DNA of 14,201 nt. Origin: Pseudoxanthomonas sp. Lineage in GTDB: Bacteria > Pseudomonadota > Gammaproteobacteria > Xanthomonadales > Xanthomonadaceae. Positions 3,538 through 14,201 of this stretch are shown here, one piece after another. How positions within the stretch are numbered: the first letter of the stretch is position 1; every line of letters begins with the position of its first letter. The DNA is taken from the NCBI GenBank assembly GCA_026785795.1, contig JAJAZJ010000007.1:1-14201 (forward strand). Reading direction: 5' to 3'. Below the pieces are notes generated by a model. The model saw only the letters and a program-made list of their open reading frames with translations, made no database searches and was not told where the DNA came from. The position numbers and the translations under genes are program-made.

Positions 3538-4944
3538 ATGGCACATCTGCAGCCGATTCTGTTATCCGGTGGTTCCGGCACGCGACTTTGGCCGCTGTCG
3601 CGTGAAGCTTATCCCAAGCAGTTCCTGCCGCTGGCCGGTGACGACACCATGCTCCAGGCGACCTGGAAGCGGGTGGCGCCGCTGGCGACTGCCGCGCCTA
3701 TCGTGGTCGCCAACGAAGAACACCGCTTCCTGGTGGCCGAGCAGCTGCGGCAGATCGGCGCGCCGACCCCGGCGATCCTGCTGGAGCCGGTGGGGCGCAA
3801 CACCGCGCCTGCGATTGCGGCGGCGGCGCTGCATGCCGCTGCCGATGGCCAGGATCCGCTGCTGCTGGTACTGCCGTCCGACCACGTGGTCCGCGACGAG
3901 GAGGCTTTCCGGCTCGCGGTGCTTGCTGCCTGTGCGGCCGCGGAATCCGGGGCGCTGGTGACTTTCGGCATCGTCCCCGATGCGCCTGAAACCGGGTTTG
4001 GCTACATCCAGGCCGAAACTGGCAATGGCCTGCGCCCGGTCCTGCGCTTCGTGGAGAAGCCCGATGCCGAAGATGCCCGGTCCTATCTGGCCGCAGGTGG
4101 CTACTACTGGAACAGCGGCATGTTCCTGTTCCGCGCCAGCCGTTACCTGCAGGAGCTGCGCGAATATCGGCCCGACATCCTGGCGGCGGTCACCGCGGCG
4201 CTGGGCGCAGCGCAGCGCGACGGTGATTTCATCCGCCTGGACCGGGCCGCCTTCAGCGCCAGCCCGTCGGACTCCATCGACTATGCGGTGATGGAAAGTA
4301 CCGGGCATGCGATGGTCCTGCCGGTGGATATTGGCTGGAGTGATGTGGGCAGCTGGTCTGCGCTGTGGGAAGTCGCCGAGCGCGACGCCAACGGCAATGC
4401 CCACCACGGCGACGTGATCGCGGTGGATACCCGCAACAGCTATGCGTATGCGCAGCGCCTGGTGGCGCTGGTGGGCGTGGACGACATGGTGGTGGTGGAA
4501 ACCGACGACGCAATCCTGGTGGCGCGCAAGGACCGGGTGCAGGACGTCAAGCAGGTGGTGGCGCAACTCAAGCAGAGCGAGCGTAGCCAGGCGGTGCTGC
4601 ACCGCGAGGTGCATCGTCCGTGGGGCAGCTACGATTCAGTGGACGTTGGCCCACGCCACCAGGTGAAGCGGATCAAGGTCAAGCCTGGCGCGCAGCTGTC
4701 GCTGCAGTCGCACCAGCACCGCGCCGAACACTGGATCGTGGTCAGCGGGGTAGCCAGGGTCACGCGTAACAACGATGTGTTCGAGCTGTTCGAAAACCAG
4801 TCCACCTATATTCCCATCGGCGCCAAGCACCGCCTGGAGAATCCCGGAACCCAGATGCTGGAACTGGTGGAGGTGCAGTCAGGCGACTATTTGGGCGAGG
4901 ACGATATCGTGCGTTACTCGGACATCTATGGGCGCAGTGATTGA
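3538..4944 (+). CDS. manC: Bifunctional mannose-1-phosphate guanylyltransferase / mannose-6-phosphate isomerase (ManC/XanB type)
   Basis: This 468-residue cytoplasmic enzyme, full length for the type II PMI-GMP family, makes GDP-mannose from fructose-6-phosphate-derived mannose phosphates. GDP-mannose feeds exopolysaccharide and LPS sugars; in Xanthomonas the orthologue is XanB. The N-terminal guanylyltransferase domain has SGGSGTRLWPLSR (10-22), YPKQFLPL, and the sugar-phosphate signature FVEKP (171-175). The C-terminal cupin isomerase domain begins around PWGSYDSVD (361) and carries LQSHQHRAEHWIVV from 389, with Gln390, His392 and Glu397/His398 in the usual metal-site context. The ATG at 3538 is preceded by GAGGA four bases upstream. 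It is transcribed divergently from murU and ends in a strong terminator. The phosphomannomutase partner xanA is not in the window. Confidence 0.93.
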   Translation: MAHLQPILLSGGSGTRLWPLSREAYPKQFLPLAGDDTMLQATWKRVAPLATAAPIVVANEEHRFLVAEQLRQIGAPTPAILLEPVGRNTAPAIAAAALHAAADGQDPLLLVLPSDHVVRDEEAFRLAVLAACAAAESGALVTFGIVPDAPETGFGYIQAETGNGLRPVLRFVEKPDAEDARSYLAAGGYYWNSGMFLFRASRYLQELREYRPDILAAVTAALGAAQRDGDFIRLDRAAFSASPSDSIDYAVMESTGHAMVLPVDIGWSDVGSWSALWEVAERDANGNAHHGDVIAVDTRNSYAYAQRLVALVGVDDMVVVETDDAILVARKDRVQDVKQVVAQLKQSERSQAVLHREVHRPWGSYDSVDVGPRHQVKRIKVKPGAQLSLQSHQHRAEHWIVVSGVARVTRNNDVFELFENQSTYIPIGAKHRLENPGTQMLELVEVQSGDYLGEDDIVRYSDIYGRSD

Positions 4945-4970
4945 GTCCGGCCAGGACGGCCACGGCCAGC

Positions 4971-5004
4971 AAGCAAAACGCCCGCATCAGCGGGCGTTTT
5001 GCTT
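4971..5004. terminator. Bidirectional Rho-independent terminator between manC and the GlsB-family gene
   Basis: A perfect 15-base-pair inverted repeat runs AAGCAAAACGCCCGC (4971-4985), loop ATCA, then GCGGGCGTTTTGCTT (4990-5004). The GC core is followed by TTTT on both strands, so it can stop transcription from manC (+) and from the convergent small membrane-protein gene (-). It begins 26 bases after the manC stop. Confidence 0.93.
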
Positions 5005-5374: not shown

Positions 5375-6865
5375 TCAGCAGCAGCCATGTTCCCCGTGCT
5401 GTTGGCCGCCGGCGACCGCAGCCACGCCCACGGTGTCGCCACGCACGCTGGCGGCATGGTGGTCGGCGATGACCTTGGCCACGCAGGCGGTCACTTTCTT
5501 GCCCATCCCGATGTGCAGGAACTCATTCGGGCCGTGTGCATTGGAATGCGGGCCCAGCACGCCGGTGATCATGAATTGGGCGCCCGGGAATTTCTCGCCC
5601 AGCATGCCCATGAACGGGATGGTGCCACCTTCGCCCATGTACATGGCAGGCTTGCCGAACGCCGCCAGCGACGCGTCCTCGATGGAGGCCGTCAGCCACG
5701 GCGACTGGCTGGGTGCGTTCCAGCCGCTGGAAGCCTTCTCCAGGTCCATCTCCACCTGTGCGCCATAGGGCGGGTCGTGCAGCAGCAGTTCCTTGAGTAT
5801 CTCGCCACCACGTTTGCCATCCAGGGTTGGCGGAAGCCTCAGGGACAGCTTCAGCGAAGTTTGTGGCCGGAGCACGTTGCCGGCTGATCCCAGCGGCGGC
5901 AGGCCGTCGGCACCGGTCACCGACAGCGCCGGGCGCCAGGTGCGGTTGAGCACCAGTTCGACCAGGTCGTCGCCCATCGGCTGCATTGCGGGCAGGAATG
6001 GGAACTTGGCGTACACCTCGTTCCCCAGCACGCTTGCGACCTTGGTGGCCTGCTCGCGGCGCTCTACCGGGATTTCGACGAACAGCGCCTCGGACTTGAT
6101 CCTGCCGGTGGCTTCATCCTCAAGCCGTGAGAGCAGCTGGCGGATGATGCGGAAGCTGGAAGGCACGATGCCCGAGGCATCGCCGGAGTGCACGCCTTCG
6201 GACAGCACCTTCACGGTGAAATTGCCGCCGGCCATGCCGCGCAGCGAGGTGGTGCACCACAGCTGCTCATAGTTGCCGCAGCCCGAGTCAAGGCACACCA
6301 CCAGCGATGGCTTGCCGATGCGTTCGGCCAGATGGTCCACGTAGGCGGGCAGGTCATAGCTGCCGGATTCCTCGCAGGCCTCGATCAGCACCACGCAGCG
6401 CGCGTGCGCGACACCCTGCTGCTGCAGGGCCTGGATAGCCGCCAGTGAGCCATAGATTGCGTAGCCATCGTCCGCGCCGCCACGTCCGTACAGCTTGCCG
6501 TCGCGGATCACCGGTTCCCACGGGCCCAGTTCGCTGTCCCAGCCGGTCATCTCCGGCTGCTTGTCCAGGTGGCCATAGAGCAGCACGGTGTCGGCGCCGG
6601 TTTCCGGGCCGCTGGCGGGGATCTCGATAATGATCAGCGGGGTGCGTCCTTCCAGCCGCACCACCTCCAGCTGCATCCCGGGAATGGGCTGCCGTTGCGC
6701 CCACGAGGCCATCAGCGTGACCGCCTGCTCCATGTAGCCATTGGCCACCCAGTCCTTGTCGAACATGGGCGACTTGTTGGGGATGCGTATGTATTCCACC
6801 AGTTGCGGAACGATCTCGTCATCCCACAGCTGGCCCACGAACTGGTCTACCCGGTTGTTGTCCAT
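5375..6865 (-). CDS. M20 family metallopeptidase (dipeptidase-like)
   Basis: This is a 496-residue zinc-dependent exopeptidase of the M20/ArgE/CNDP type, probably cytoplasmic since no signal peptide is visible. All expected residues are present: YGHLD with His99 and Asp101, GGADD with bridging Asp132, EES with Glu165/Glu166 (general base and metal ligand), Asp193 in CLDSG, and His444 in AHGPNE. The lid/dimerisation domain lies between about 205 and 390. The exact peptide substrate cannot be read from sequence. I chose the ATG at 6865, which has GAGG five bases upstream. The longer frame's ATG at 6895 falls inside a TAGAAT promoter-like box. The last 20 or so residues form a Gly/Ala/His-rich tail ending HGEHGCC beyond the catalytic fold, which looks unusual. 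Confidence 0.88.
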   Translation of the reverse strand: MDNNRVDQFVGQLWDDEIVPQLVEYIRIPNKSPMFDKDWVANGYMEQAVTLMASWAQRQPIPGMQLEVVRLEGRTPLIIIEIPASGPETGADTVLLYGHLDKQPEMTGWDSELGPWEPVIRDGKLYGRGGADDGYAIYGSLAAIQALQQQGVAHARCVVLIEACEESGSYDLPAYVDHLAERIGKPSLVVCLDSGCGNYEQLWCTTSLRGMAGGNFTVKVLSEGVHSGDASGIVPSSFRIIRQLLSRLEDEATGRIKSEALFVEIPVERREQATKVASVLGNEVYAKFPFLPAMQPMGDDLVELVLNRTWRPALSVTGADGLPPLGSAGNVLRPQTSLKLSLRLPPTLDGKRGGEILKELLLHDPPYGAQVEMDLEKASSGWNAPSQSPWLTASIEDASLAAFGKPAMYMGEGGTIPFMGMLGEKFPGAQFMITGVLGPHSNAHGPNEFLHIGMGKKVTACVAKVIADHHAASVRGDTVGVAAVAGGQQHGEHGCC

Positions 6866-6893
6866 CCTCGCCTCGTCAATCCTCGATGGTCCC

Positions 6894-6899
6894 ATTCTA
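6894..6899 (-). promoter_or_regulatory. Possible -10 element for the M20 peptidase gene
   Basis: On the minus strand the sequence reads GGGGGTAGAATGGG, with TAGAAT matching TATAAT at five of six bases. It sits 28 bases upstream of the ATG at 6865, so transcription would begin shortly before the ribosome-binding site. The -35 position holds no good TTGACA match. Confidence 0.4.
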
Positions 6900-6951
6900 C
6901 CCCCGGGCCCGTTGCCGGCACGTCACGCGCCCCGGCAGACCAAGGACAACG

Positions 6952-6967
6952 GTAGGAAATTCCCTAC
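6952..6967. promoter_or_regulatory. 16-base near-perfect palindrome in the M20/comEA-like divergent region
   Basis: GTAGGAAATTCCCTAC pairs with its own reverse complement at seven of eight positions, around a central AATT. It lies in the 246-base gap between the two divergent genes, 144 bases before the ComEA-type ATG. Palindromes of this size commonly bind dimeric regulators; the outline resembles sites of NarL/LuxR-type response regulators (for example RcsB boxes), but this is inference. The rest of the gap (6900-7098) shows no other convincing element. Confidence 0.35.
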
Positions 6968-7111
6968 ACGGCATCGGGGTGTGCACCGGCAGCGCGACCG
7001 GGGCTTGCACGATAGTTTGGATGCGTGCCCTGGCGAAGACTGTCCACACCGGCGGACGGACAGGTTCCGGACCCCGGCAAACCAAAACCCATCGCCACAA
7101 GGAGAGTTGCC

Positions 7112-7471
7112 ATGAAATCGATCGCCATCATTCTCAAATCCCTCGCCCTGACGCTGCTGCTGGCGTCTGCCGCCCATGCCGCCGACAAGGTAAACATCAA
7201 TACCGCCGACGCGGCCGCGCTGGACACCGTGTTGATCAACGTAGGCCCGGCCAAGGCCCAGGCCATCGTGGAATACCGTACCGCCAATGGCCTGTTCAAG
7301 AGCGCCGAGGAACTTGCCATGGTCAAAGGCATTGGCCTGAAGACCGTGGAGAAGAACCGCGACCGCATCGAAGTGGGCCGTTCTGCGCCGGTGCAGAAGC
7401 CAGCAACGCAAGCCAGTGCCACCGCGACCAAGGCCGCAGCGACCAAAGCCAAGCCGGTAGTGACTCGCTGA
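7112..7471 (+). CDS. ComEA-family helix-hairpin-helix protein, exported
   Basis: This is a 119-residue protein. Residues 1-23 form a clear Sec signal peptide (MKSIAIILKSLALTLLLASA ending AHA, cut before ADK). Residues 26-86 are the ComEA-type double helix-hairpin-helix DNA-binding domain: VNINTADAAAL, NVGPAKAQAIVEYR, then MVKGIGLKTVEKNRDRI. The tail (about 89-119) is rich in Ala, Thr and Lys. In other bacteria ComEA binds incoming DNA in the periplasm during transformation; short stand-alone versions like this are common in Xanthomonadaceae and a competence role is not proven. The ATG at 7112 has an excellent AAGGAGAG (7099-7106), which rules out the longer in-frame start at 7025. Its 3' side runs straight into the GGA-rich structured region, with no terminator before 7652. 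Confidence 0.88.
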   Translation: MKSIAIILKSLALTLLLASAAHAADKVNINTADAAALDTVLINVGPAKAQAIVEYRTANGLFKSAEELAMVKGIGLKTVEKNRDRIEVGRSAPVQKPATQASATATKAAATKAKPVVTR

Positions 7472-7526
7472 ACCAGCACCTCGCGCACCCGCAGCGTGCA
7501 GGATGCATGCCCCGGGAGTGCTGGGA

Positions 7527-7618
7527 GGCAGGAAGCCAGGCGAGAAACGCCTGGATGCTGAAAGGGACGTAGCCTTGCGCCGGGCAACCACCGGCCAATG
7601 ACAGGGCAGGAAGCCAGG
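7527..7618 (+). repeat. Two copies of a 14-base direct repeat inside the candidate RNA
   Basis: GGCAGGAAGCCAGG occurs exactly at 7527-7540 and at 7605-7618, 78 bases apart. Each copy can fold as a GGC/GCC hairpin displaying AGGAA, close to the CsrA/RsmA consensus. The flanks differ, so this is not a longer duplication. Confidence 0.9.
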
Positions 7619-7651
7619 AACCAATGGCCGGACGCCGAACAGGGAAGTCAC

Positions 7652-7695
7652 CATCGCCCGGACTGCACAGGATGTGCGGCCGGGCGATGTTTCTT
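7652..7695 (+). terminator. Rho-independent terminator after the candidate RNA
   Basis: Outer stem CATCGCCCGG (7652-7661) pairs perfectly with CCGGGCGATG (7680-7689). An inner stem GCACA/TGTGC closes a GGA loop (7665-7677), with a small ACT/GG internal loop between them. TTTCTT follows at 7690-7695. The U-rich side is on the + strand, so it ends transcription from the ComEA-type gene or the small RNA before the HutD-family gene. Confidence 0.85.
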
Positions 7696-7704
7696 GCGGC
7701 CGGG

Positions 7705-7710
7705 TAGAAT
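7705..7710 (+). promoter_or_regulatory. Possible -10 element for the HutD-family gene
   Basis: CGGGTAGAATTTCC contains TAGAAT (five of six to TATAAT), ten bases past the terminator T-run and 29 bases before the ATG at 7740. This gives the gene its own promoter, insulated from upstream. No good -35 hexamer is seen, because that position falls in the terminator stem. Confidence 0.4.
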
Positions 7711-7739
7711 TTCCAGCCAGGCAGCGCCGCAGGAAAGCC

Positions 7740-8339
7740 ATGTCCCCGTGTCCATGGGTGATACCCGCCAACGAATACCGCCGTGAGCGCTGGCTCAACC
7801 AGGCCGGCTGGACCCGCCAGATCCTGCGCTTTCCCGATACGGAAGACTGGGACTGGCGCCTGTCCATCGCGGAGATCGAGCAGGACGCGCCGTTCTCGAG
7901 CTATCCGGGGATCGAGCGTGAACTTGTGCTGTTGCGCGGCAACGGCCTGCGCCTTTGCTTTGATGATGGACAGTGCGAAACCCTGCTGCCGCCACATGAC
8001 CGGATCCGGTTCGGCGGCGAACGCGCGCTGCGCGGCGAGCTGCTGGACGGGCCGACGCATGACTTCAACCTGATGTGGCGGCCGGAGCGCGTACAGGCGC
8101 AACTGCTGCATCGCCCGCTGGTGGGGCCCATGCTTTTCTTCACCGAACCGGGCACCACCTGGGCCGTGCACCTGATCGCCGGACAGGCGGAGTTTGATCG
8201 AAAGTCGAACCTGCCTGCGCTGTGGGCCGGCGACACGGCGGTACTGGTCGCTGGCGAGGGCCGCCAACGCTACGCGCTGGAAGGTGGCGGCGAAGCGCTG
8301 CTGATCCGCTTGCGCACAGTTGCGAGCATTGTCGACTGA
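7740..8339 (+). CDS. HutD/Ves family protein
   Basis: This is a 199-residue protein with the double-stranded beta-helix (cupin-like) pattern of HutD. IPANEYRRERWLNQAGWTRQI near the N-terminus, DWDWRLSIAEIEQDAPFSSYPG, ERELVLLRGNGLRL and GPTHDFNLM are recognisable family blocks. HutD in pseudomonads modulates histidine-utilisation (hut) operons, possibly by sensing urocanate or a related ligand; the E. coli homologue Ves is cold-responsive. No hut gene lies nearby, so the role here is open. The ATG at 7740 has AGGAAAG at 7731-7737; the open frame extends upstream to 7674, but that part overlaps the terminator and promoter and is not coding. It converges on the TonB receptor gene. Confidence 0.82.
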   Translation: MSPCPWVIPANEYRRERWLNQAGWTRQILRFPDTEDWDWRLSIAEIEQDAPFSSYPGIERELVLLRGNGLRLCFDDGQCETLLPPHDRIRFGGERALRGELLDGPTHDFNLMWRPERVQAQLLHRPLVGPMLFFTEPGTTWAVHLIAGQAEFDRKSNLPALWAGDTAVLVAGEGRQRYALEGGGEALLIRLRTVASIVD

Positions 8340-10806: not shown

Positions 10807-11139
10807 CTAGTCGCGGTCATCCCGGGTCCAGATGGCCTCGTGCTTCAGCTTGACCGGGAACTTGGGTACCCCCGTGTAGGCCGGCGCACACAGCGGACTG
10901 CCGTCGCGGATGTCGAAGCGGGCGCCATGCAGGACGCACTCGATGCTCGCGCTGGCCGGGTCAAACCCGCCTGCGGACAGCTCGAAGTCCTCGTGGCTGC
11001 ACTTGTCCTCCAGCGCGTAATAGGTGCCGTCGTGGTTGAAGACCACGATGGGCACGCTGCTGACCTCGTCCCAGGCCGTCTTCATTTCGCCAGGCAGCAG
11101 TTCACTGCTGGCGCAGACGAAGGTCCAGTGCTCACTCAT
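10807..11139 (-). CDS. Rieske [2Fe-2S] ferredoxin (non-heme oxygenase ferredoxin type)
   Basis: This 110-residue soluble protein is essentially one Rieske domain. The cluster ligands are Cys47-x-His49 (KCSHEDFELSAG) and Cys68-x2-His71 (CVLHGARFD), followed by the conserved Gly/Pro region GSPLCAPAYTGVPKFPVK. Such small proteins pass electrons to ring-hydroxylating oxygenases, but no oxygenase is nearby. Its position after sufS suggests a role in, or as a client of, Fe-S cluster assembly; this is inference from context. The ATG at 11139 overlaps the GNAT stop in an ATGA arrangement, so translation is probably coupled; no independent Shine-Dalgarno is visible. No terminator is seen before the siderophore receptor promoter. 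Confidence 0.9.
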   Translation of the reverse strand: MSEHWTFVCASSELLPGEMKTAWDEVSSVPIVVFNHDGTYYALEDKCSHEDFELSAGGFDPASASIECVLHGARFDIRDGSPLCAPAYTGVPKFPVKLKHEAIWTRDDRD

Positions 11140-11702
11140 GTCGGGGTCTGTTTCAGGAAGGGCGGCGTGTGAAATGATTTCTCAAGCACCTCGAAGCGCA
11201 GGTCGTCACGCCTGGGGATTCCATAGCGCTCGTCCCCGTAGGGAAACGGCCTGGTGATGCCGGTACGGCGGTAACCGCGGCGCTCGTAGAAGGCGATCAG
11301 TTCGCTGCGCAGGTCGATCACGGTCATGCACATCCGCGGCAGCTGCCATTCTTCACTCGCCACGCGCTCCGCCTCGGCCAGCAGGCGCTTGCCTACACCG
11401 CTGCCCTGCAGTTCCGGCCTGACCGAGAACATGCCGAAATAGCCGGCGCCGTTCTCCTGCGACACATGTGCGCAAGCCACCATCGAACCATTCCGTTCGG
11501 CTATCAGGATGCGGCTGTGCGGGCGCGCGATGTCCTGCCCAAGGACCTCTGGATCGATGCGCTGGCCGTCCAGCAGGTCGGCCTCGGTGGTCCAGCCCTG
11601 CCTGCTGACCTCGCCGCGGTAGGCGGAAGTCACCAGTGCAACCAGTGGGTTGATGTCTTCGAGTGTGGCGTCGCGAAAGTCAAGCGGATCCATGGACTTC
11701 AT
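11136..11702 (-). CDS. GNAT family N-acetyltransferase
   Basis: This 188-residue protein has a single GNAT fold. FRDATLEDINPLVALVTSAYR is the N-terminal strand-helix, ILIAERNGSMVACAHV and GYFGMFSVRPELQGSGVGKRLL give strand 4 and the acetyl-CoA pyrophosphate loop (Q-G-S-G-V-G), and ELIAFYERRGYRRTG is the C-terminal helix motif. The acceptor substrate cannot be predicted. The start may be ATG 11702 or ATG 11693; neither has a strong ribosome-binding site. It sits 62 bases after sufS on the same strand, with a stem-loop in the gap, and its stop overlaps the Rieske start. It is probably co-transcribed with the suf genes, though a private promoter cannot be excluded. Confidence 0.85.
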   Translation of the reverse strand: MKSMDPLDFRDATLEDINPLVALVTSAYRGEVSRQGWTTEADLLDGQRIDPEVLGQDIARPHSRILIAERNGSMVACAHVSQENGAGYFGMFSVRPELQGSGVGKRLLAEAERVASEEWQLPRMCMTVIDLRSELIAFYERRGYRRTGITRPFPYGDERYGIPRRDDLRFEVLEKSFHTPPFLKQTPT

Positions 11703-11733
11703 GTTACGGAAAACCCGATGGTCGCGACAGCCG

Positions 11734-11755
11734 CGCGTTCGGTCTGGCGAACGCG
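11734..11755 (-). other. Intercistronic stem-loop between sufS and the GNAT gene
   Basis: CGCGTTCG (11734-11741) and CGAACGCG (11748-11755) form a perfect 8-base-pair stem around a 6-base loop, nine bases past the sufS stop. No T-run follows on the minus strand, so it is not a canonical terminator. It may act as an mRNA-stability element or a weak attenuator. Confidence 0.5.
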
Positions 11756-11764
11756 AGGTTCTGC

Positions 11765-13015
11765 TCAGGCAAGCAGCCGGCGCGCCTTGTTTAACGCCGC
11801 GATGAAACCCTCTACTTCCTCATGGGTGTTGTAGAACGCCAGCGAAGCGCGGCAGGTGGCCGCTACGCCCAAGGACTGCAGCAGCGGGTGCGCGCAGTGC
11901 TGTCCGGAGCGGATTGCCACGCCCTCCAGGTCAAGCAGGGTGGCCAGGTCGTGCGCGTGCGCACCCTGGATCAGGAACGAGATGACCGCCGCCTTGCCGG
12001 GCGCCTGGCCGAAGATACGCAGTCCCTCTATTTTCTCTAGCTCCTCGGTGGCGTGCGCCAGCAGCTCGCCCTCGCGCGCTTCCACCTGCGCCATGCCGAT
12101 GGACTGCAGGTAGTCGACGGCGGCGCCAAGGCCCACGAATCCCGCGATATTGGGCGTGCCAGCCTCGAACTTGTGCGGCCCCTCGTTGAACACGGTGCCT
12201 TCGAAGCTGACTTCCTTGATCATGTCGCCGCCTCCCACGAAGGGCGGCATCGCCTGCAGGTGTTCGCGCCGCGCCCACAGCGCTCCCGTGCCGGTGGGCC
12301 CACACATCTTGTGGCCGGTGACCGCGTAGAAGTCGCAGCCGATCGCAGTAATGTCCAACGACCGGTGCGGCGCGGCCTGGGAGCCATCCACCACGCTGAC
12401 AATGCCGCGCTTGCGCGCTTCCTGGCAAATCTCGCGCACCGGGTTCACCGTGCCCAGCACGTTGGACACGTGGGCAAGGGCGAGCAACTTCACGTCGGCA
12501 GTCATTGCTGCATACAGGCCGGCCAGGTCGAGGCTGCCGTCAGGCGCAAGCTCGGCGACCTTGATACGGGCGCCAGTGTGCTCGGCCACCAGCTGCCACG
12601 GCACGATATTGGCGTGGTGCTCCATGCGCGAGACCAGGATGGTGTCGCCGGCTTTCAGGCGCGGCAGCGCCCAAGAGTAAGCCACCAGGTTGATGGCGAA
12701 CGTGGTGCCGCTGCACAGCACCAGTTCGTCGGCGCGCACGTTGAGGAAGCGGGCCAGCTTGCTGCGCGCGCCTTCGTAGGCATCGGTGGCCTCGGTGCCG
12801 AGGGTATGCACGGTGCGGCTGACATTGGCGTTGTGCCGCCGGTAGAAATCGTCCACGGCTTCGATGACGCAGGCAGGCTTCTGGCTGGTGTTGGCGCTGT
12901 CCAGGTAGATCAGCGGCTTGCCCTGGATTTCCCGCGTGAGTATCGGGAAGTCGGCCCGGACGGCCGCCCAGTCCGGCCCTGGACACACCGGTAGCTTGGC
13001 TTCTGCGCTATGCAT
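11765..13015 (-). CDS. sufS: SufS cysteine desulfurase (class II)
   Basis: This 416-residue PLP enzyme takes sulfur from L-cysteine to form a persulfide and alanine, feeding the SUF Fe-S assembly machinery in the cytoplasm. RADFPILTREIQGKPLIYLDSAN is the typical N-terminus and RMEHHANIVPWQ carries the cofactor-stacking His. Lys236 in VTGHKMCGPTGTG holds PLP, and catalytic Cys374 lies in RSGQHCAHPL, the short-loop form that distinguishes SufS from IscS. The ATG at 13015 follows the sufD stop by two bases, which fixes the start and indicates coupling. The length is normal for the family; a sulfur acceptor (SufE or SufU) is not in the window. Confidence 0.95.
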   Translation of the reverse strand: MHSAEAKLPVCPGPDWAAVRADFPILTREIQGKPLIYLDSANTSQKPACVIEAVDDFYRRHNANVSRTVHTLGTEATDAYEGARSKLARFLNVRADELVLCSGTTFAINLVAYSWALPRLKAGDTILVSRMEHHANIVPWQLVAEHTGARIKVAELAPDGSLDLAGLYAAMTADVKLLALAHVSNVLGTVNPVREICQEARKRGIVSVVDGSQAAPHRSLDITAIGCDFYAVTGHKMCGPTGTGALWARREHLQAMPPFVGGGDMIKEVSFEGTVFNEGPHKFEAGTPNIAGFVGLGAAVDYLQSIGMAQVEAREGELLAHATEELEKIEGLRIFGQAPGKAAVISFLIQGAHAHDLATLLDLEGVAIRSGQHCAHPLLQSLGVAATCRASLAFYNTHEEVEGFIAALNKARRLLA

Positions 13016-13017
13016 GC

Positions 13018-14201
13018 TCAGGCAATCCCTGCGTTGGCCAGCGCGCCGTCCAGCTGGGTGGTGAGCATCGCGGCCAGCTGGCTATTGCCCACGCTGTCCA
13101 GCGGCTCGCGGCAGAAAGCGCCGGTCAGCAGCTGCTGGGCCAGGTGTTCAGGAAGTCCGCGCGAGCGCAGGTAGAACAGGGCGTTGGCATCCAGCCTGCC
13201 CACCGTCGCCCCGTGGGCAGCCTTGACTTCATCGGCATGGATCTCCAGCACCGGCTGGGTGTCGATTTCGGCGCCTTCGGACAGCAGCAGGTTCTTGTTG
13301 GACAACATGGCATCGCTGCCATCGGCGCCCGGACGGATGAGGATGCCGCCATGGAACACCGCGCGTCCGCGCCCCGTGCCCAGCCCACGCCAGGTGAGCT
13401 CGCAAGAGGTATCGCGGGCAATGTGCTCAATGCCCAGCCGCGTATCCACGTGGCGCCTGCCGCTTGCCATCAGCACGCCGCTGGCGATCAGTCGGGCGTG
13501 GTCGCCTTCGAGGCGCACGTTCAGTTCATGACGCGACAGGGCCGCGCCGAGCTCCAGGTCTACCCGTCGGTACACCGCATCGCGTCCCAGCACCGCATCG
13601 GTACGCAGGAAACTGGTGGCGCGTTCGCTTTCCTGCTGCAGGCGGGCATGCTCCAGCACCGCACCATGCGCCAGATGGACCTGGGTCAGCGCGTTGGCCA
13701 GATGCGCATGCGGCCCGGCGGCAAGGTGATGCTCGACCACGCACAGGCGCGCGCCTTCGCGAAGTTCGATCAAGTTGCGAAGATGCCAGGCGCGATCGGT
13801 GGCGTCTTCCGCGCCGATGAAGACCAGATGCAGCGGTGTTTCGCTGCCTGCGCCGGCCTCCGCACGCAGAACCACGCCTTCATTGCTGAGTGCCGCGTTG
13901 AGCCGGGCGAATGTTTCGTCATGGCGTTCGAAGCGGCGGGCAAGGAATCGGGCCGAATCACTGCCTGCTGCCAGCACTTCGGAAAGCAGCTGCAGGCTGA
14001 CGCCGTTCGGCAACGGTTCGGTGCTGGATAAGGACGGCGAATAATGCCCATTGACGAAAACAACTCTGGGCGCAGGTATGTCCACGAGAAGTTCGCGTGC
14101 TGGTTCCGGAGCCTTGTCAACGGCAGCGAAGCTGCGACGCTCCAGCGCACGCAGCGAGGTGTACTTCCATGCCTCGCTGCGCGGTCCGGGCAGGCCGTCG
14201 C
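13018..14201 (-). CDS. sufD: SufD, Fe-S cluster assembly scaffold subunit (5' end cut by window edge)
   Basis: The frame is open from the stop at 13018-13020 to the right edge, giving 393 visible residues. The apparent GTG start at 14085 is internal, because the typical SufD N-terminal block GLPGPRSEAWKYTSLRALERR continues upstream of it. SufD pairs with SufB and the ATPase SufC to assemble Fe-S clusters. The right-handed beta-helix core and the C-terminal signature (LEIHADEVKAAHGATVGRLD, then ALFYLRSRGLPEHLAQQLL) are clear. The His of the AHG triplet corresponds to the essential His360 of E. coli SufD as I recall it, but the nearby Cys358 position is Ala (codon 13219-13221). sufC and sufB would be expected just outside the window. 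Confidence 0.93.
   Translation of the reverse strand, partial: DGLPGPRSEAWKYTSLRALERRSFAAVDKAPEPARELLVDIPAPRVVFVNGHYSPSLSSTEPLPNGVSLQLLSEVLAAGSDSARFLARRFERHDETFARLNAALSNEGVVLRAEAGAGSETPLHLVFIGAEDATDRAWHLRNLIELREGARLCVVEHHLAAGPHAHLANALTQVHLAHGAVLEHARLQQESERATSFLRTDAVLGRDAVYRRVDLELGAALSRHELNVRLEGDHARLIASGVLMASGRRHVDTRLGIEHIARDTSCELTWRGLGTGRGRAVFHGGILIRPGADGSDAMLSNKNLLLSEGAEIDTQPVLEIHADEVKAAHGATVGRLDANALFYLRSRGLPEHLAQQLLTGAFCREPLDSVGNSQLAAMLTTQLDGALANAGIA

Follow-up and report, generated by a model that had tools for sequence, protein, structure and literature searches.

Small RNAs (sRNAs) such as CsrB and CsrC, or RsmX, RsmY and RsmZ, carry GGA triplets repeated in hairpin loops, end in a terminator and act by titrating CsrA, while RsmV and RsmW are encoded at other loci. 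The latter two, from Pseudomonas aeruginosa, are CsrA/RsmA-binding sRNAs beyond the classical families (PMC7694677). The closest described system is RsmU (sRX061) of Xanthomonas campestris pv. campestris, an sRNA formed from the 3'-untranslated region (3'-UTR) of comEA, on the same strand and with a Rho-independent terminator (PMC7694677). According to that report, RsmU has no promoter of its own and is released by ribonuclease (RNase) cutting of the comEA messenger RNA (mRNA); forms of about 120 and 80 nucleotides (nt) are observed, and deletion of the comEA promoter removes both. Binding of RsmA to the Xanthomonas RNA was directly proven by experiment, and RsmU overexpression reproduces part of the rsmA mutant phenotype (PMC7694677). 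By BLAST, Tang et al. (2020) found RsmU in no bacteria other than Xanthomonas (PMC7694677). No report of RsmU outside Xanthomonas was found in the open-licence literature, as judged by titles and the beginnings of abstracts.

The window analysed here, a stretch of 14,201 nt, is the whole of one contig (C7) of a Pseudoxanthomonas assembly (G000) that comprises 2.0 Mb in 359 contigs. It contains comEA and, directly behind the comEA stop (7471) and on the same plus strand, a GGA-rich noncoding region at 7472..7695. The features of its sequence indicate that this region very probably represents the RsmU of Pseudoxanthomonas, predicted to be cut from the comEA mRNA and to sequester CsrA. The original prediction of a CsrA-sequestering RNA considered the place behind comEA to be new, which does not hold, since it is already the published place of RsmU (PMC7694677). 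What is known is RsmU behind comEA in Xanthomonas; what is new is its presence in another genus, its longer, duplicated form and its recurrence in much of the family.

The comEA 3'-UTR of the window and its likeness to RsmU

The comEA gene (7112..7471, plus strand) encodes a helix-hairpin-helix protein of 119 amino acids, which matches PF12836 (71 bits) and TIGR00426 (72.7 bits) over the cut-off of both models; the full-length comEA model TIGR01259 reached 66 bits, below its cut-off of 152. The candidate RsmU-type sRNA at 7472..7695, which is probably co-transcribed with comEA, has the position of RsmU and contains twelve GGA triplets and no TCC. The twelve triplets (7501, 7515, 7524, 7531, 7553, 7565, 7609, 7617, 7630, 7643, 7660 and 7670) all lie within 172 bases, so that the original count of twelve in about 170 noncoding bases was accurate. 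Dinucleotide shuffling gave an expected mean of 6.2 (standard deviation 1.8), and 13 of 5000 shuffles reached twelve. This number was reached by none of the 1352 windows of equal length from both strands of the remaining contig and by none of the 9500 windows from the flanks of 17 Pseudoxanthomonas loci, where the largest count was 11.

Hairpins presenting GGA in the loop are also more frequent than expected. Five were found with stems of at least four pairs, against 1.2 expected (4 of 1000 shuffles equal that number), and two with stems of at least five pairs, against 0.4 expected (reached in 80 of 1000 shuffles). All four hairpins named in the original prediction are present where it had placed them, and two of them have stems of three pairs. 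The first (7494..7510, plus strand) forms seven pairs with a loop drawn as 3 nt; those at 7527-7537 and 7605-7615 are the 3-pair stems, each weak alone, and the former is replaced by other pairings when the fold of the entire region is predicted; the fourth (7665-7677) sits within the terminator. The folding stability of the region exceeded that of its shuffles (z -5.2 for 7472-7700 and z -4.6 for 7494-7695).

The Rho-independent terminator (7652..7695, plus strand) likewise has the GGA loop that had been described. Its stem spans 7652-7689 with ten outer pairs, the apical loop region ACAGGAUGU contains the GGA at 7670-7672, and the T tract is modest (TTTCTT). A simple terminator scan did not list the 7652-7689 stem, probably because it accepts loops of 3-8 nt only. 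Upstream of the terminator, the predicted exact 14-base repeat GGCAGGAAGCCAGG was confirmed at 7527 and 7605, and each copy opens one of two tandem units. Unit 1 (7527..7604, plus strand) comprises the GGCAGGAAGCC hairpin (7527-7537), the GGA at 7553 and the motif AAAGGGACGT (7561-7570), and is without a terminator stem; unit 2 (7605..7695, plus strand) comprises hairpins at 7605-7615 and 7625-7637, the motif ACAGGGAAGT (7639-7648) and the terminator. The likeness of the two units was not equalled by any of 300 shuffles in the window, and the same holds for 13 of 17 Pseudoxanthomonas UTRs; shuffles as high numbered 1 of 300 in P. yeongjuensis, 2 in P. mexicana and 7 in P. wuyuanensis, and the test failed in P. 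gei (90 of 300). Both units were placed by the motif in this test, so that the likeness is partly built in; the 14-base repeat lies outside the motif. Most Pseudoxanthomonas UTRs thus hold two tandem units. A covariance model of the module (R1, described below) matched unit 1 alone at E 0.01 in 15 of the 17 named Pseudoxanthomonas loci, and gave no match to unit 1 of the window alone.

The window and RsmU are alike in their position in the comEA 3'-UTR on the same strand, in the Rho-independent terminator and in several GGA placed in predicted hairpins. The comparison was extended to three loci (L033, L039 and L040) with a 40-nt terminator at 104-143 nt past the comEA stop, within about one base of the published RsmU geometry, which suggests that they belong to Xanthomonas. 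These loci share with the window a module composed of a GGC-AGGA-GCC hairpin, the motif ACARGGANGT and a terminator on a CGCCCGG stem. In their genomes R1 scored 78.4 bits, compared with 68.9 bits in the window, with L040 as the only one of the three outside the model. The forms differ in size: counted from the comEA stop, the terminator stem ends after 218 nt in the Pseudoxanthomonas window, with its two tandem units, and after 143 nt in L039, and the GGA total is 12 compared with 7 in L039, while Tang et al. count four motifs in the Xanthomonas RsmU. The terminator loop also differs, being GGA in the window and AGTGAC in L039.

The repeated loop GGA, the terminator and the presumed titration of CsrA are common to the window, to CsrB and CsrC and to RsmX, RsmY and RsmZ. 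Unlike these RNAs, however, the RNA of the window is attached to comEA, with no promoter of its own seen. An Rfam search, one of the checks suggested with the original prediction, gave no match in 7472-7695 even at E 5, the families of CsrB, CsrC, RsmX, RsmY and RsmZ included; a match of 24.2 bits to rsmX at 4924-5000 is far under the cut-off of 56.

By analogy with Xanthomonas, the comEA mRNA would extend to the terminator (7652-7695), and RNase would then free the 3'-UTR, as for RsmU, yielding an RNA that is rich in GGA and no longer than about 200 nt. The GGA hairpins and ACARGGANGU motifs may bind CsrA dimers and thus draw CsrA off its mRNA targets, and the amount of the RNA would be set by the comEA promoter. 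Of the two tandem copies in the genus, the first would have lost the outer terminator stem, which the second retains.

Occurrence in the family and conservation of the module

Altogether 110 comEA loci were examined (30, and a further 80 with names), and the motif plus stem was found in 72. The covariance model R1 and its alignment A1 were built from 44 of 64 units, window included. Against the window R1 scored 68.9 bits at 7612-7695 (E 1.6e-21), the window being one of the 44 model sequences. Among the 80 named loci the module was found behind comEA in 51 at E of at most 1e-6, 32 of which are in the model. The named carriers are Pseudoxanthomonas, Lysobacter, Luteimonas, Vulcaniibacterium and family members without a genus name, and in the ten loci named Thermomonas R1 gave no match at E 0.01.

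The model was also run on 200 genomes of the order, with stricter filters by which some weak matches were lost. Scores of at least 35 bits were obtained in 29 of the 36 sampled genomes of the window's family and in none of the 164 others, where the best score was 27.8 bits. In 28 of the 29 the module follows the comEA match on its strand at a distance of 40-250 nt; in the 29th the module is present although no comEA was found. Fifteen of the matched genomes are outside the model; G176, G186 and G096 among these are close to modelled ones, and nine of the fifteen (G063, G075, G082, G103, G116, G121, G166, G131 and G233) were not chosen with the model at all. Weak additional R1 matches elsewhere in the genomes, of at most 33.8 bits, were rejected as second copies. 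A plain BLAST search with 7470-7760 matched 23 of 36 other genomes of the same genus and none of 24 outside it; this reach, limited to the genus, may explain why the query with the Xanthomonas sequence stopped at Xanthomonas.

Two lineages extend the range of forms. In genus g22 (L177-L183), to which seven of the fifteen matched genomes outside the model belong, the comEA 3'-UTR measures 271-274 nt and holds 12-13 GGA and 0-1 TCC. In lineage g23 (G089; L176, 1855-2148) the order is M20 peptidase gene, 185 bp, module (39.8 bits) and hutD, and no ComEA match was found genome-wide at E 0.001. Upstream of this module a degenerate stretch resembling the palindrome described below was seen by eye. 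The retention of the module in G089 without a detectable comEA indicates that the RNA can outlive its host gene.

Covariation across orthologous intergenic regions, which had been proposed as a check, is present in both the terminator and the first hairpin. Across the 44 units, 11 of 14 terminator pairs changed on both sides with pairing kept, and all five covariation measures lay above all 500 shuffles and every slid version, with the caveat that related sequences may beat shuffles even without structure. The terminator-loop GGA was kept in 34 of the 44 units although the stem varies. The second alignment (A2) comprised the window and 16 of 17 records named Pseudoxanthomonas; L058, without the module, and L063, not so named, were left out. 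In these 17 UTRs, 5 of 6 pairs of the hairpin at 7494-7510 changed on both sides and 82% of cells were paired; for the whole structure, three of five covariation measures exceeded all 500 shuffles and one was reached by two of them.

Conserved GGA triplets persist where the sequence around them changes. GGA triplets outside the terminator were kept in 62% of cells, compared with 18% for other triplets, and one of 10000 random sets was as high. The triplets at 7531, 7565 and 7643 were kept in 16 of 16 other UTRs, the last of these falling under the motif selection; those at 7501 and 7553 were kept in 15, 7609 in 12 and 7670 in 10. Moreover, GGA outnumbered TCC in 65 of 65 module loci (580 versus 100), a count from which L053, L055, L068 and L088, with an oddly placed stem, were also excluded.

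Points against RsmU function and competing explanations

A number of observations weigh against the interpretation as a CsrA-sequestering RNA. The motif ACANGGANGT helped to select the 44 units, and its constancy in A1 is therefore no evidence. Ten of these units, including L033, L037, L039 and L041, are without the terminator-loop GGA. In the 17 UTRs the pair-types measure was reached by 92 of 500 shuffles; the 3-pair hairpins are almost invariant there and therefore give little information. Among the 16 relatives, the GGA at 7515, 7524 and 7617 were kept in none, 7660 in four and 7630 in nine. Clades without the module also encode CsrA. As regards the Xanthomonas RNA, when AAU replaced GGA in each of the four predicted motifs, RsmA still bound, in a smaller complex, and the overexpression phenotype was unchanged (PMC7694677). 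Since binding survives this change, a mechanism based on GGA alone is not firmly established, not even for the model species. Furthermore, the strain lacking RsmU equals the wild type in the traits tested, namely virulence, hypersensitive response (HR) and swarming, and RsmU is undetectable in the rsmA mutant, which weakens the simple view of titration (PMC7694677). Support for the claim of a CsrA/RsmA-sequestering RNA comes from where the region lies, from its conservation and covariation and from its correspondence to RsmU.

The last two observations also favour a cis role, in which CsrA bound to the 3'-UTR would chiefly serve the stability or processing of the comEA mRNA itself, any CsrA titration being a by-product. 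This is further in line with the lower stability of comEA mRNA without RsmA in Xanthomonas (PMC7694677). Such a role is nevertheless rather unlikely to be the main one, since deletion of the comEA 3'-UTR reduced comEA mRNA only slightly and overexpressed RsmU mimics the rsmA mutant in part (PMC7694677), and since the module is retained in G089 without a detectable comEA. The protein partner may also be questioned altogether, if the conserved GGA and G-runs paired with another sRNA such as sX13, which has C-rich loops. In the sX13 mutant of X. campestris pv. vesicatoria the ComEA-related XCV3096 is up (PMC3771888), and GGGGG occurs between the GGA hairpins of several relatives, e.g., L033, L039 and L072. 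Unit 1 of the window has no such run, however, GGA in a loop suits CsrA better than G-run pairing, and the direct proof of RsmA binding in Xanthomonas makes the pairing with sX13 very unlikely.

It is slightly less probable still, and thus hardly to be expected, that the region is merely a conserved terminator in purine-rich and GC-rich sequence with incidental GGA. Hairpins of three pairs are cheap at 66% GC, a few dinucleotide shuffles do reach twelve GGA, and in the first 140 nt of loci without the module GGA also somewhat outnumbers TCC (132 versus 78 in 36 loci). The excess in every one of the 65 module loci and the persistence of GGA triplets beyond their surroundings, including the terminator loop despite stem changes, argue against this. 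The least probable explanation, with scarcely any weight, is that the region acts as leader or attenuator of hutD, which begins 50 bases past the terminator stem on the same strand and lies downstream in 60 of 69 module-bearing loci. In the other nine no hutD match was found downstream within the stretch examined, 29 of 37 loci without the module retain both the M20 and hutD neighbours, and a TAGAAT sequence past the terminator (7705-7710), recognised by eye, is a possible own -10 box of hutD.

For the preferred reading as RsmU, a CsrA partner is available in the genus. Of 38 Pseudoxanthomonas genomes, 37 encode CsrA, as do 20 of 20 further genomes of the family, with or without the module. 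In the source assembly itself csrA was not found. In a relative csrA follows alaS, and the contig of the source assembly ends inside alaS (G000:C73:128-2320), where csrA would be expected next. The absence is therefore probably caused by this contig end, and a genuine loss of csrA was rejected in favour of the assembly gap.

Upstream palindrome and neighbouring genes

A palindrome of the form GGTAGG-N6-CCTACA (6951..6968), a candidate operator of comEA-rsmU, is the sole exact match to KGTAGG-N6-CCTACM in the source assembly. With some slack, palindromes of this type precede comEA at 54 of the 69 loci with the module and at 4 of the 37 others, 146-255 nt before the start of the ComEA protein match. 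The underlying table holds 106 loci, with L027, L028, L029 and L034 excluded because their contigs are shared with named loci, and L044 scored as without module because of a chance stem. Co-evolution of palindrome and module is not claimed: the Fisher test gave p 1.5e-11, but a quickly built tree of the M20 gene from 75 loci, with 9 module and 7 palindrome changes, offered only four pairs on supported branches, and the independent-pairs test on it gave no support. The palindrome was also rejected as the mark of a broad regulon, since it occurs 0-4 times per Pseudoxanthomonas genome, about as often as the reversed control pattern.

The sequence GATAGT (7011..7016, plus strand), noted by eye, is a possible -10 box of comEA, and a GATA-like box lies at a similar distance in many relatives, also by eye. 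If it serves as such, the palindrome would be placed near -63. A strict sigma-70 scan of 7000-8200, a range that begins downstream of the palindrome, detected no promoter. The palindrome adjoins as well a possible -10 box (ATTCTA at 6894) of the divergent M20-family peptidase gene, so that either gene may be its target.

In Escherichia coli, csrB and csrC are preceded by an 18-bp binding site of UvrY with the consensus TGTAAG-N6-CTTACA (PMC4682653). The palindrome of the window agrees with it at 9 of 12 fixed positions, and the TGTAGG-N6-CCTACA of relatives at 10 of 12. The same paper lists Xanthomonas and Pseudoxanthomonas genomes among those whose BarA/UvrY matches had escaped its survey (PMC4682653). 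For a response regulator of the UvrY/GacA type, the best NF007018 match per genome scored 202-219 bits across 20 further Pseudoxanthomonas genomes and 189-224 bits across 20 further genomes of the family. The curated cut-off of 280 was reached in none of 21 genomes of the genus and in none of the 20 from elsewhere in the family; the best match of the source assembly (165.6 bits) is to a gene cut at a contig end. Control of the palindrome by a response regulator of the NarL/FixJ type, perhaps the GacA/UvrY-like protein of the genus, is a speculation, and direct binding of such a protein is a guess.

The comEA-rsmU locus might, as a tentative and somewhat doubtful extension of these results, be the main ancestral CsrA-antagonist locus of most Xanthomonadaceae (Lysobacteraceae). 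Such a locus would combine competence and a global regulator in one transcript under a GacA/UvrY-type operator (KGTAGG-N6-CCTACM), with GGA copy number tuned by duplication in Pseudoxanthomonas or by lengthening in g22, and comEA lost in one lineage while the promoter region and the sRNA stayed. If this were true, comEA-rsmU would be the missing link between the GacA-like regulator and CsrA in the family. The conserved palindrome offers a concrete candidate for the upstream site. If the locus antagonises CsrA in Pseudoxanthomonas, Lysobacter, Luteimonas, Vulcaniibacterium and g22, the family possesses its own CsrB counterpart, so far described in one genus only.

Further copies of the palindrome were recorded. 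A second recurrent copy (L219, 6513-6760; also L190, L198, L200, L203, L205 and L208) lies between genes that by eye resemble those of a phosphoenolpyruvate (PEP) mutase and a trehalose-6-phosphate synthase. It is located about 70 bp before a noncoding stretch that ends in a terminator-like hairpin, a candidate sRNA without an Rfam match in L219 or L220. A gene for a GacA/UvrY-like response regulator is present in L219 (3258-3953, minus strand), and in five Pseudoxanthomonas genomes the GacA-like gene lies 2.6-4.5 kb from another palindrome copy. This nearness was not counted as evidence, since it is probably one inherited arrangement. A third site lies in L189 and L204, close to a short open reading frame and to a gene that by eye resembles that of a TesA-like esterase.

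Within the window, comEA is flanked by the M20-family peptidase gene (5375..6895, minus strand; PF01546 over the cut-off) and, beyond the candidate RsmU, by the HutD-family gene (7740..8339, plus strand; PF05962, 172 bits). Between two genes at 4971-5004, weak Rfam matches to several families occur on both strands, probably reflecting a two-way terminator. At 10807-14085, on the minus strand, genes resembling those of SufD, SufS, a GNAT acetyltransferase and a Rieske-type ferredoxin were recognised by eye.
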